DNA from: Alphaproteobacteria bacterium
Lineage (GTDB): Bacteria; Pseudomonadota; Alphaproteobacteria; Micavibrionales; UBA2020
Assembly: GCA_030682495.1 (NCBI GenBank)
Contig: JAUXOC010000025.1
Location: 1-48,742 of the forward strand
DNA: 48,742 bases
Reading direction: 5' to 3'
Of this stretch, positions 44,354 to 48,742 are shown piece after piece. Under the pieces are notes generated by a model. The model had not been told where the DNA came from and ran no database searches. It saw only the letters and a list, made by a program, of their open reading frames with translations. The position numbers and the translations under genes are program-made. The stretch's first letter is position 1; each line of letters opens with the position of its first letter.

Positions 44354-46558
44354 TTGACAGACCAAAATAGCGCGCAGAAGCCGGTTGTCAAAACCGGCGG
44401 GTCCCTCTCGGGCTCGTTCCGCGACCAGTTCAGATCCGCATCTTTGTGGGATCATCTGGCCAGCCCTGCGCGTATCTGGCGCAGCAAGATCAGCTGGCGC
44501 ATCACCATCACCGTATTTCTGACCATCCTGACCGTGCAAGCGGTTGTGCTGGTCGTGACGGCCAGTGATTTCAAAACCCAGAAGCTGCACGAAATGCGCC
44601 AATTGGCGCGCGTCTTTGTTATCTCCTCGCTCGGCGATAGCGACAACCAGCTGACCGCCCCGTTGACGCAGGAAGCCGCTGACCGGCTGTTCAGCGAGAC
44701 GATGATCAGCGGCATTTCGATCTACGGGCTCGATTATAATCTTATTCAGGTCTATGGCGAAACCGTCGTCCTGCGCCCCAGCGCAAGCACCGATGCCACC
44801 TTGCAGCAGCTAAGCGCAAGCAACCGATTTTATGAGGTCGTTTTACGTTCGCACGAAATCCGCAGGCCTTATCATATCGCCGTCAAACTTTATACCGCGG
44901 GAATCGCGCCGCAGATCAACCAGCATATCCAGCAGTCTATTCTCATCATCATGCTGCTGTCGGGCTTTGTGACGAGCGTTTTGATGCTGGTGCTGGGTCA
45001 ATGGCTTTTGGAGCCGGTGATGGTCTTGCGCAACAACCTGCTGAGCGCCGCGCAAAACCCCGAAAAGCCGGATGTGCGCCGCCCGCGCCGCGAAACCCGC
45101 GATGAAATTGGCATGGCGCTGCGCATCGCCAACGACCTGATACGGCAAAACGCGCATAACCTGCGCAAGCTCCGGTCGCAGGCCGAAGATAAAATCCACA
45201 AACTTGCCTATTACGATAACCTGACCGGCCTGCCCAACCGCACCTTCTTTCTCGAAAAGCTCGACGACAACATCCGCCACCGCGTGGCCGAGGAAGAGCG
45301 CCGCCTTGCGGTCTTTGCCATTGACCTTGACCATTTCAAAGACATCAACGACACCATGGGTCACGAATTTGGCGACAAGCTGCTGGAAGCCATCGGCAAG
45401 CGTCTGGTCAAGGCGCTGCCCGCGGGCTCGCTGATTTCGCGCGCCAGTGCCGACGAGTTTACCGCCATGGTTGTTTTGAAAGAAGAGCATTCGGATACCG
45501 CCACGCTGGTCGACCAGATTTTCAATGCGATGGCAGAGCCCGTCAGCATTCTGCATGAACGCTTTCAGGTGCGCGTCTCGATCGGCGTTGCCCATAGCCC
45601 CGACGATGGCATGGAAGCCCGCCAGATCCTGAAAAACGCCGACATCGCCCTGAACCGCGCCAAGGAAGAAGGCCGCGACACAGTGCGCTATTATTCCGAA
45701 GACTTCGACCTTGCCGTCCAGCAGCGTTTCCAGATGCTGCGCGATTTGCGCATGGCGCTGGAAGAAAACCAGCTGCGCCTGCATTTCCACCCGCAGTTCG
45801 ATTTGCGCAGCGGCCAGCTGATTGGCGCGGAAGCTCTTTTGCGCTGGTGGTGCCCCGACAACAGCAAAGAAGGCGGCCGCTTTATCTCCCCCGCCGATTT
45901 CATTCCCGTGGCAGAACAATCCGGCCTGATTGTGCCAATCGGCGAATGGGTTTTAAAGACCGCCTGCAAGATCAACAAACAGTGGCAGGATAAAGGCCTG
46001 CCGCCGTTCCGCATGGCGGTGAATATTTCGGGCGTGCAGTTTCACCGTGCCGACATCGTTGCCTTGACAGCGCAGGCGCTGAAAGAAAGCGGCCTTGACC
46101 CCAAATGGCTGGAGCTGGAAGTCACCGAAAGCGTCTTCATGGAAAACATGCAGGTCGCTATCGACATCCTTAACCAGCTGCACCAGCTGGGTGTCGAGCT
46201 GGCAGTTGACGATTTCGGCACGGGCTATTCGTCCCTGAGCTATCTGCGCCAGTTCCCGATTGACCGTCTGAAAATTGACCAGTCGTTTATCCGAAACGCG
46301 CTCATCAATAACGACGACCGCATGATCGCCAAGACCATTATCACCCTTGGTCACAGCCTGAACCTGAAAGTCATCGCCGAAGGGGTGGAGACGGTCGAAC
46401 ACGAAGAGTTCCTGAAAGCCGAAGGCTGCGACGAAGTGCAGGGTTTCAAATACACCAAGCCCCTGCCGCAAGACCAGATGCGCGAATACGTCATCAACCA
46501 TAACCGCACGATGGCGCAGAACACGACGCTCAAGGTCATCGAAGACAAAAACGCCTGA
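44354..46558 (+). CDS. Membrane GGDEF/EAL protein, probable c-di-GMP phosphodiesterase
   Basis: A 734-residue inner-membrane signalling protein. A membrane helix at about 50-70 and another at about 195-216 enclose a periplasmic sensing domain; a HAMP-like stretch follows. The GGDEF-type domain (about 285-440) has YDNLTGLPNR but SADEF at 365-369 instead of GGDEF, so it is probably catalytically inactive and regulatory. The EAL domain (465-715) is intact: EALLRWW at 493-499 with the signature EAL, LELEVTESVF, DDFGTGYSSLSYLRQFPIDRLKIDQSF and GVETVEHEEFLKAEGCDEVQG. It should therefore degrade c-di-GMP. The start is TTG with an AGGGG site 9 bases upstream. Confidence 0.94.
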   Translation: MTDQNSAQKPVVKTGGSLSGSFRDQFRSASLWDHLASPARIWRSKISWRITITVFLTILTVQAVVLVVTASDFKTQKLHEMRQLARVFVISSLGDSDNQLTAPLTQEAADRLFSETMISGISIYGLDYNLIQVYGETVVLRPSASTDATLQQLSASNRFYEVVLRSHEIRRPYHIAVKLYTAGIAPQINQHIQQSILIIMLLSGFVTSVLMLVLGQWLLEPVMVLRNNLLSAAQNPEKPDVRRPRRETRDEIGMALRIANDLIRQNAHNLRKLRSQAEDKIHKLAYYDNLTGLPNRTFFLEKLDDNIRHRVAEEERRLAVFAIDLDHFKDINDTMGHEFGDKLLEAIGKRLVKALPAGSLISRASADEFTAMVVLKEEHSDTATLVDQIFNAMAEPVSILHERFQVRVSIGVAHSPDDGMEARQILKNADIALNRAKEEGRDTVRYYSEDFDLAVQQRFQMLRDLRMALEENQLRLHFHPQFDLRSGQLIGAEALLRWWCPDNSKEGGRFISPADFIPVAEQSGLIVPIGEWVLKTACKINKQWQDKGLPPFRMAVNISGVQFHRADIVALTAQALKESGLDPKWLELEVTESVFMENMQVAIDILNQLHQLGVELAVDDFGTGYSSLSYLRQFPIDRLKIDQSFIRNALINNDDRMIAKTIITLGHSLNLKVIAEGVETVEHEEFLKAEGCDEVQGFKYTKPLPQDQMREYVINHNRTMAQNTTLKVIEDKNA

Positions 46559-46604
46559 TTTTACTCTTTCATTATTTTACAAGGCTTTACATGTAGCTGC
46601 CCTG

Positions 46605-46616
46605 TCCTGCGCAGGA
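46605..46616. repeat. Intergenic palindrome with CCTGCGCAGG core (copy 2)
   Basis: TCCTGCGCAGGA is a perfect 12-bp palindrome between the GGDEF/EAL gene and the VbhA-like gene. It shares its 10-bp core with the palindrome at 9282-9295 and, split by three bases, with the hairpin at 48392-48410. Confidence 0.45.
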
Positions 46617-46686
46617 ATTTCTTCATCAAGACACCCCAAACATCGCATCAATTTCCACCCGGAAATGTGCTAAATTAGAGATGTAA

Positions 46687-46917
46687 ATGAAAGTGAAAAT
46701 GAAACCAGCAAACACGACACAACAACGACTGGAAAACGCAGAGTACGCGATTGCGGCTCAGCGGATTGAAGGTTTGACGGTTCCGCCGGAGACAATAGAA
46801 GACCTGATGCGTGTGGTGCGTGGCGAAATAACAACCGATGCAGCCCGCGCCGCTTTGCTCAGACGGTTTCAATGCCGTGTGATGCCCGCCACGCCGCCCG
46901 TTTCGGATTCGAGATAG
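46687..46917 (+). CDS. VbhA-like Fic antitoxin, orphan
   Basis: A 76-residue protein resembling the antitoxin VbhA, which blocks the AMP-transferase activity of Fic toxins. The helix NAEYAIAAQRIEGL fits the inhibitory pattern (S/T)xxxE(G/N), with Glu28-Gly29, but position 24 is Ala instead of Ser/Thr. The following DLMRVVRGEITTDAARAALL matches the family's second helix. No Fic (HPFxxGN) gene is near it, so the antitoxin has no visible partner. A CATTTCC/GGAAAT inverted repeat at 46651-46666 and TGCTAAATT lie directly upstream. Its 3' end overlaps the convergent gene by 49 bases. Confidence 0.75.
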   Translation: MKVKMKPANTTQQRLENAEYAIAAQRIEGLTVPPETIEDLMRVVRGEITTDAARAALLRRFQCRVMPATPPVSDSR

Positions 46918-47171
46918 CCGATCATGATGACCACTGCCACGCGTTCGATCGGGCAGCGGGTGGCGATATGCAGGAGTTCCGGCGGCAGGCTGGACAGGCC
47001 GGCTCCGCGCAAATAGCCGCGCCACTGCACCCAGAAGCCGCAGACCAGACGGGTCACTTCCACCGTGACCCGACTGTCGTCGCTCTCTAGCAGCGCCGCC
47101 CAGACTTCCTCTTCCGACAGACGCGCGAATTCCGGGCAGGCCCTCGGAAAGGCCAGCGTTACATCCTGCAT
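46869..47171 (-). CDS. Unknown protein, second gene of an S24-regulated operon
   Basis: A 100-residue protein that I do not recognise. Features seen: an N-terminal MQDVTLAFPRACPEF, an acidic middle (LSEEEVWAALLESDDS), and a cysteine/tryptophan-rich centre CGFWVQWRGYLRG, then a hydrophobic VAVVIMIGYLE end. The ATG at 47171 lies 4 bases after the stop of the first gene, so the two are one operon. Its 3' end overlaps the antitoxin gene. The open frame extends further upstream, but only through the first gene. Function unknown. Confidence 0.65.
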   Translation of the reverse strand: MQDVTLAFPRACPEFARLSEEEVWAALLESDDSRVTVEVTRLVCGFWVQWRGYLRGAGLSSLPPELLHIATRCPIERVAVVIMIGYLESETGGVAGITRH

Positions 47172-47175
47172 GCGG

Positions 47176-47442
47176 CTAGACTTTTTTGGCAGCGGCAGGC
47201 CTCGCGGCATCCACGACCATCCTGAGCGCCATATCCTCGAGCGCACAGGACTGCGGCTTCAAGGCCGTTTCGGGATTTTCACCCGCCCGCACAAGGTTTT
47301 TGATCTGCTTTGCGTAAAGCTCCATCAGGCTGGCGAGTTCCTGAATGATCTGGCTATCGTGCCTGTCCGCCAGCGCCGCCTGAATGTCGGCCTCGGTCAT
47401 GTTTTGGTATTTTTTGGGTAATGTATAGGTCAATGGACTCAT
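47176..47442 (-). CDS. Unknown protein, first gene of an S24-regulated operon
   Basis: An 88-residue, mainly helical, charged protein (EADIQAALADRHDSQIIQEL, then LMELYAKQIKNLVRAGENP) with a basic alanine-rich C-terminus. It has no cysteine-rich motif, signal peptide or recognisable domain. A strong AGGAGAG site stands directly before the ATG. The region in front contains a 20-bp perfect palindrome with outward-reading TATAAT boxes and, further up, a copy of the inverted repeat found before the S24 repressor gene. It is therefore likely to be repressed by that protein. Confidence 0.7.
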   Translation of the reverse strand: MSPLTYTLPKKYQNMTEADIQAALADRHDSQIIQELASLMELYAKQIKNLVRAGENPETALKPQSCALEDMALRMVVDAARPAAAKKV

Positions 47443-47471
47443 GCTCTCCTATCGATGCTGACGGGAGCCAG

Positions 47472-47491
47472 ATTATACAAATTTGTATAAT
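47472..47491. promoter_or_regulatory. 20-bp perfect palindrome containing divergent TATAAT boxes
   Basis: ATTATACAAATTTGTATAAT is fully symmetrical and includes TATAAT on each strand. The leftward TATAAT would serve the unknown two-gene operon; its transcript would start about 25 to 30 bases before the ATG. A second regulator or the S24 protein could bind here. Confidence 0.55.
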
Positions 47492-47501
47492 AAACAACTT
47501 A

Positions 47502-47523
47502 AAAAATACGTAATCGTATTTTT
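47502..47523. promoter_or_regulatory. Operator copy 1, inverted repeat AAAAATACG-TAAT-CGTATTTTT
   Basis: A perfect 9-bp inverted repeat with a 4-base centre, upstream of the promoter region of the unknown two-gene operon. The same repeat, with an AAAA centre, lies in front of the S24 repressor gene. Confidence 0.65.
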
Positions 47524-47590
47524 GTTGCGGCGGCATAAATTGCCGGCTGACCGGGCATTTGCGCAGGAGGGCGAGCACAAGACGGCTCCC

Positions 47591-48238
47591 CTACAAGATC
47601 GTTCCGACGACGGGCATGATTTTATATATGGCCGATTTTTTTATTTTCAGTGTTTTTTCGGGGTTGAGCTGCTTGAGAAGGCAATACTCGCCATCATCAC
47701 CCTGATAGATTTTTAGCAGTCCCTCGCCGTTTTTAAGCCAGATCGCCACAGGTTTTCCCCTGATAACCGGCTTGCGCGTATGTATGCAGGCGATCCATCC
47801 GGCATAAAACATCGGCTCCATGCTGGTATGGCCGATCGCCATGGCAAAAGCGTCTTTATCCGTGAGCTGGGCAGGCAGGGGAGTAATCCAGTCGATCGGC
47901 GTTTCTTCGCTATTGAACGAATAGCGGTCGCCGCCCTGCGCGTCGATAGTCCCCCATACCGGAATTTTCCCGGCCTGCGCGGTGCGCGGCGCATCGGAAA
48001 GTCCGCCCGGCAACGTCGGCGGTGCGGGATATTCGGCATCAGATACGCCGGTTTTCAGCCATTTGACGCTTGTTTCCAAGGCTTTCGCCAGTTCGTAGAT
48101 GTAATGCGGGTTTCTTATCTGCCCGCTGAGGAGCCTATAGATGGAGGGTTGTGTTGTACCGCACAGCCCGGCGAGGCGGTCTTGTGTTATATCCAATTCG
48201 GCCATGCGCTGGCGCACTCTGTCTGCGGTCGTACCCAT
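47591..48238 (-). CDS. S24/XRE repressor, LexA/CI-like
   Basis: A 215-residue repressor of the phage-CI/LexA type. The N-terminal XRE helix-turn-helix (about 4-60) reads VRQRMAELDITQDRLAGLCG then TTQPSIYRLLSGQIRNPHYI. The C-terminal S24 domain has GHTSMEPMFYAGW with the catalytic serine and LKNGEGLLKIYQG with the catalytic lysine. At the usual Ala-Gly cleavage site it has DAQGGD rather than AG, so self-cleavage is uncertain. An inverted repeat in front of its own gene, repeated in front of the nearby two-gene operon, suggests autoregulation. An AAGG site precedes the ATG. Base composition around it is AT-rich, as for acquired DNA. Confidence 0.9.
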   Translation of the reverse strand: MGTTADRVRQRMAELDITQDRLAGLCGTTQPSIYRLLSGQIRNPHYIYELAKALETSVKWLKTGVSDAEYPAPPTLPGGLSDAPRTAQAGKIPVWGTIDAQGGDRYSFNSEETPIDWITPLPAQLTDKDAFAMAIGHTSMEPMFYAGWIACIHTRKPVIRGKPVAIWLKNGEGLLKIYQGDDGEYCLLKQLNPEKTLKIKKSAIYKIMPVVGTIL

Positions 48239-48272
48239 GCTTCAAACCTTCGTATAATTTTGGAGTATAAGC

Positions 48273-48292
48273 AAAATACGAAAACGTATTTT
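48273..48292. promoter_or_regulatory. Operator copy 2, inverted repeat AAAATACG-AAAA-CGTATTTT
   Basis: A perfect 8-bp inverted repeat with a 4-base centre, 34 bases upstream of the S24 repressor start. It overlaps the region where the repressor's promoter should lie (TATACT on the minus strand is just downstream). Matching copy at 47502-47523. Confidence 0.65.

Positions 48293-48742
<450 letters not shown>

Follow-up and report, generated by a model that had tools for sequence, protein, structure and literature searches.

In the present work we examined a stretch of DNA of 48,742 nucleotides (hereafter, the window; contig JAUXOC010000025.1 of assembly GCA_030682495.1) from an alphaproteobacterium of the order Micavibrionales, which is a relative of the predatory Micavibrio bacteria. 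Near its end the window encodes a repressor of the phage 434 class and two small genes, A and B, and we consider it probable, on the evidence of sequence, that this repressor is autoregulated, has a shifted DNA specificity and controls the A-B operon on a remnant of a mobile element. This reading is well supported, since relatives of the repressor in the order pair a Gln-Gln recognition helix with the 434 site and three of the four full-length ones share a layout of two sites. The features on which it is built are as follows.

47591..48238, minus strand: repressor of the 434/P22 class, 215 amino acids (aa), with HTH_3 and Peptidase_S24 domains
48273..48292, no strand: putative operator 2, autoregulatory, AAAATACG-AAAA-CGTATTTT
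47502..47523, no strand: putative operator 1, past the repressor stop and ahead of the A-B operon, AAAAATACG-TAAT-CGTATTTTT
47176..47442, minus strand: gene A, 88 aa, predicted all-helical, of no database family (AlphaFold2 predicted local distance difference test score, 83)
46869..47171, minus strand: gene B, 100 aa, predicted all-helical, starting 4 bp beyond the gene A stop

As proposed, a dimer of the repressor would bind AAAATACG-N4-CGTATTTT at 48273-48292 and limit its own transcription, and the same repressor would bind at 47502-47523, shutting off (or possibly tuning) the A-B operon, the output of which would be two small helical proteins related to each other. Its recognition helix would have diverged from that of 434, the operator moving along with it from ACAA-N6-TTGT to ATACG-N4-CGTAT at the same distance from the dyad, and the locus as a whole would be what is left of a mobile element, small in size and with a repressor of the phage 434 class on it. 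We infer both the binding to the two sites and its sign, which would be repression.

In the original prediction it was the two matched repeats that drew attention to the locus. Both were confirmed, and a scan of the whole 2,520,700-base genome established that they are the only two perfect copies of AAAATACG-N4-CGTATTTT, both lying on the island described below. Operator 2 is found 34 bp ahead of the repressor ATG at 48238, with its core at -51 from the start, and operator 1 (47503-47522 in the common 20-base form, 47502-47523 with its 9-bp arms) is found 68 bp beyond the repressor stop codon and 60 bp ahead of the gene A ATG at 47442. The next-best copies in the genome carry two mismatches and are as frequent as a reversed control pattern, and the six ATACG-N4-CGTAT cores located elsewhere in the genome all lack the A3/T3 flanks, most of them falling within open frames. 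Perfect palindromes with arms of at least 8 bp number 13 in the window, five of which are on the 2.0-kb island, as compared to a mean of 0.33 in dinucleotide shuffles of the island, and none of 300 such shuffles produced two palindromes sharing arm and spacer. When viral contigs were searched for the exact operator, 19 matches were obtained, all of them single copies and none beside a relative of the repressor.

The repressor matched PF01381 (HTH_3, 5.5e-6) and PF00717 (Peptidase_S24, 4e-7) in Pfam, as well as phrog_4 of PHROGs, a 'transcriptional repressor' (3.2e-22). Like the phage 434/P22 repressors (CI/C2), which combine a lambda-repressor-like helix-turn-helix (HTH) with an S24 C-terminal domain, it aligns to 434 in its HTH without gaps; the closest PDB match was the phage 434 repressor itself (1per_L, 1e-9; residues 5-69), and a profile search also recovered P22 C2 and lambda CI. 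It also shares with them a palindromic operator, putative here, in its own promoter, and the half-sites of that operator stand at the 434/P22 distance from the dyad. Unlike in the phages, the operators here are single and not arranged as the tripartite OR/OL, and no cro or structural phage genes are present.

In the complex of the 434 repressor with its DNA, three residues read the ACAA half-site: Gln28 contacts A1, Gln29 the base pair at position 2, and Gln33 position 4. The recognition helix of 434 (T27-Q28-Q29-S30-I31-E32-Q33) corresponds to T-Q-P-S-I-Y-R in the window repressor, where Gln28 is retained, Gln29 is changed to Pro and Gln33 to Arg. Counted from the dyad, the half-site in the window runs A(7) T(6) A(5) C(4) G(3). 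The base read by the kept Gln28 would thus be the same, and the positions that differ are 2 and 4, which would be read by the two changed residues. We infer this pairing of helix residues and bases, including the reading of a C:G pair by Arg33. The window protein thus departs from 434 in its helix (TQPSIYR as opposed to TQQSIEQ) and in its site (ATACG-N4-CGTAT), as well as in the scissile Ala-Gly bond, which is not conserved.

The main evidence that the circuit of the original prediction is real comes from the relatives, which carry a site matched to their helix and, in three cases, the two-site layout. The survey covered 142 genomes of the order; repressors of the 434 type were gathered from them and the DNA upstream of each start codon was scanned. 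Among relatives that keep Gln28-Gln29 (a [T/S]QQ[A/S] helix) an exact ACAA-N6-TTGT was found within 200 bp upstream of the start in 13 of 14, amounting to 18 sites as compared to a mean of 0.15 and a maximum of 2 in shuffles; the exception, L201, has its frame fused into a longer open reading frame (ORF) and hence an ill-defined start. None of the four relatives lacking Gln-Gln had the site upstream, and its background was 1 in 41 kb at the same loci outside the upstream regions and 1 in 234 kb in DNA of other relatives. The 14 Gln-Gln proteins are drawn from several families of the order, and being kin they do not represent 14 independent events. In most relatives the first site lies at -46 to -65, close to the -51 of the window core, L007 (-93) and L006 (-137) lying further out.

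A second ACAA-N6-TTGT was located 0-16 bp past the repressor stop and before the next gene in three of four full-length relatives (L007, L189 and L190), a result reached in 0 of 5000 shuffles. Judged by these positions, a two-site layout, with one site in the repressor's own promoter and one before the next gene, is common to the window and these three relatives, except that operator 1 stands further from the stop, at 68 bp. This is in keeping with the predicted pair of matching sites, one preceding the S24/XRE repressor gene and the other the A-B operon. The gene that follows the second site is a response regulator in L007 and a small HTH gene in L189 and L190. The 434-type regulators of the order (L006, L007, L189, L190, L200, L205-L210, L212 and L213) therefore resemble the window repressor in having an own-promoter site, mostly at a near-identical position, and differ from it in keeping Gln28-Gln29 with ACAA-N6-TTGT and in their downstream genes. 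What is conserved is the type of site and the layout, the sequence having changed.

Two further groups of regulators were noted in the course of this survey. L200, L205-L210, L212 and L213 are short 434-type regulators (112-123 aa) that occur across many genomes of the order's family f4, and several of these regulators have two ACAA-N6-TTGT 23 bp apart ahead of the start; they represent an apparently chromosomal 434-code regulator. L009-L026 represent a separate conserved S24-type regulator of the family, with another HTH (NPAAVNRMLYGRR) and shared upstream motifs containing ATTGC.

The palindromes might also be bound by another factor, such as the product of A or B or a host regulator, with the repressor acting elsewhere. 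A third perfect palindrome, which was overlooked in the original prediction, points to possible action of a second regulator on the promoter of gene A.

47472..47491, no strand: third perfect palindrome, ATTATACAAATTTGTATAAT, 20 bp, between operator 1 and gene A

This palindrome overlaps a possible -10 element (TATAAT) of gene A and is unique genome-wide even when three mismatches are allowed; that A and B have no assigned function also leaves room for such a role. Nonetheless, operator 2 is placed like the relatives' own sites, its dyad geometry fits the 434 fold, and the A-B pair of contig C66, considered below, lacks the sites although A and B are encoded there, so that binding of the palindromes by another factor appears quite unlikely.

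It was also considered whether the repeats are RNA hairpins, namely a terminator past the repressor and a leader hairpin before it, and not protein sites. Operator 1 does fold at -7.8 kcal/mol (z -3.4), with T residues coming after it on the minus strand. The same 16 bases, however, also occur ahead of the repressor gene, a place where a terminator would serve no purpose and where folding is unremarkable (z -1.3); the stem is AT-rich, and a terminator scan gave no call at operator 1 or operator 2. We regard a role as RNA hairpins as very improbable.

A damage-responsive module, in which RecA-stimulated self-cleavage of the S24 repressor would free A-B, had likewise been proposed, and would add to the autoregulated circuit without excluding it. 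Self-cleavage of S24 repressors requires both a Ser-Lys dyad and an Ala-Gly bond (PMC8565304). Consistent with such a module, the Peptidase_S24 domain is accompanied by the dyad, as SMEP (Ser) and LLKIY (Lys) match in alignment the SM and VK found in L008 and in a Rhizobium phage repressor. At the scissile position, located from an alignment of distant relatives, the aligned stretch reads GTIDAQGG and the bond is Ala-Gln, not Ala-Gly. The SM serine is missing in relatives L006, L007, L189 and L190, and none of the SOS boxes GTTC-N7-GTTC, GAAC-N7-GAAC and CTGT-N8-ACAG was found at 46501-48742, a region that takes in the island. A damage response thus appears rather unlikely, and since the Ala-Gly bond is not conserved the class we assign to the repressor is that of its predicted 434/P22-type DNA binding and not of self-cleavage.

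The genes that the repressor would control do not belong to any family in Pfam, NCBIfam, PHROGs or PADLOC, and a fold search with the models of A and B, which are of moderate confidence, gave no match at E <5. The two proteins resemble each other (hhalign E 5.8e-6), with helices in the same order, and by this comparison are paralogues, though distant ones. The same genome has a second A-B pair, its genes arranged in the same order, on contig C66, with 55% identity in A (7.5e-26) and 47% in B. This pair is flanked by a relaxase gene and a ROS/MUCR gene, and ArdA and an integrase adjoining tRNA-Ser are nearby.

L030 3842-12136: C66 integrative mobilizable element, in the order pre-relaxase ORF, relaxase, 121-aa ORF, A-B, ROS/MUCR, ArdA, integrase, tRNA-Ser(CGA)

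This element shares the A-B pair with the window and differs from it in having a relaxase, ArdA, ROS/MUCR and an integrase and in lacking the operator. In a codon comparison the ratio of nonsynonymous to synonymous substitution rates (dN/dS) came to about 0.12-0.29 in A and 0.37 or so in B, dS being near saturation, and as both values are below 1 the two genes likely encode real proteins. No copy of A (142 genomes of the order searched) or of B (385 of the class) was found outside G000 and G005, and none were found in plasmids or viral contigs, or, for B, in named genome contigs. A combined A+B profile retrieved one distant relative, in G346 (3.5e-8), near two XRE-like genes; when this protein was in turn searched in plasmids, phages and viral contigs nothing was recovered. 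Whether A and B are accessory proteins linked to the element and silenced by the repressor is in our view evenly balanced; toxin, anti-repressor and transfer roles are not distinguishable from these data.

Several further observations touch on A and B. Just ahead of A in C66 there is a hairpin followed by Ts, and L029 1230-1480, directly before the C66 pair, has a strong hairpin along with repeats of the motifs TTTACAACCTC / GGTTGTAAA. In G005, a Micavibrio, a lone relative of gene A with an acidic tail and without gene B is located at L028 1444-1740. A neighbour of the G346 protein was considered as a type IV coupling protein and dropped, its Pfam value being only 0.098.

The repressor, both putative operators and A-B are carried on an island set between an EAL/GGDEF gene, which ends at 46558, and aroA.

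46559..48570, no strand: inserted island, about 2.0 kb

The junction was measured in the genome contigs of named relatives and in genomes of the family, with one record held under two handles counted once and G015 omitted from the count, as it has an N run, an assembly gap within its EAL gene. The EAL-aroA spacing was 40-180 bp in 26 of 28 distinct relative loci; in the congener G016 it is about 70 bp, and G015 has the same junction. The exceptions, L084 (1462 bp) and G017 (742 bp), have gaps filled by unrelated ORFs. Because the junction is short in congeners and other relatives, the window, by this comparison, carries an insertion of about 1.95 kb. The absence of the island from this junction in relatives, together with the second A-B pair on an element with relaxase and integrase, supports the mobile-element origin that had been suggested. 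The AT-rich composition that had been put forward alongside it did not hold, as the island has a guanine plus cytosine content of 54% and the DNA elsewhere one of 57%, a difference of no more than about two standard deviations among 2-kb windows. No direct repeats (att) of at least 8 bp were found at the island ends, and a search of Rfam gave no match.

The island contains only four ORFs of plausible size, with no integrase, cro or structural phage gene beside the repressor and no relaxase or integrase among its ORFs. The lack of integrase and relaxase, and an orphan VbhA ORF that overlaps gene B, would fit an island in decay on which the circuit is dead and the repeats are leftovers. Against this, all frames are intact, both operators are perfect and dN/dS is below 1 in both genes, well below in A, and we therefore consider decay of this kind unlikely.

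A number of points weigh against a functional circuit of the kind we favor. The combination of repressor, A-B and this operator was found in one genome only, so that this operator sequence itself has no support from conservation, and searches gave no second protein sharing the recognition helix with which the Gln-Pro...Arg/ATACG pairing could be examined again, viral contigs offering none of use. The C66 pair has neither a copy of the operator nor an S24 repressor beside it, indicating that A-B do not need operator control everywhere. A simple scan gave no good sigma-70 -35/-10 pair, and the genome is a draft of 109 contigs and 2.52 Mb.

The autoregulated repressor with shifted specificity would provide a natural test of how a 434-type repressor shifts its DNA target, as the Gln-Gln relatives keep the textbook 434 site and the window repressor appears to have altered its helix and both sites together. 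The rule of one site in the own promoter and one before the next gene may also serve as a simple operator prediction for this class of repressor in uncultured bacteria of the order, and A-B add a protein family without database entry, which is linked to mobile DNA and is rare among the genomes. It is a tentative suggestion, which we would not favor over its opposite, that A-B are the founders of a new protein family, helical, paired and tied to mobile elements, and that the repressor is a natural 434-class specificity switch in which helix and both operators changed together and the two-site wiring was kept, the module being reused with different outputs across the order.

The remaining ORF of the island had been described in the original prediction as an antitoxin-like gene.

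46687..46917, plus strand: orphan VbhA (Fic antitoxin) domain ORF (PF18495, 8.7e-13)

The domain match upholds that description as to VbhA, and the ORF and gene B meet tail to tail, sharing 49 bp at their 3' ends. Unlike in FicTA modules (VbhA/FicA), no Fic gene adjoins it, and the island holds no Fic-sized ORF, the search for Fic being confined to the island. The inhibition motif expected is [S/T]xxxE[G/N] (PMC5033356), and the corresponding stretch in the window reads AQRIEG, with Ala at the Ser/Thr position. Another solo VbhA gene, likewise with no Fic partner beside it, is located in G010 at L066 1423-1662.
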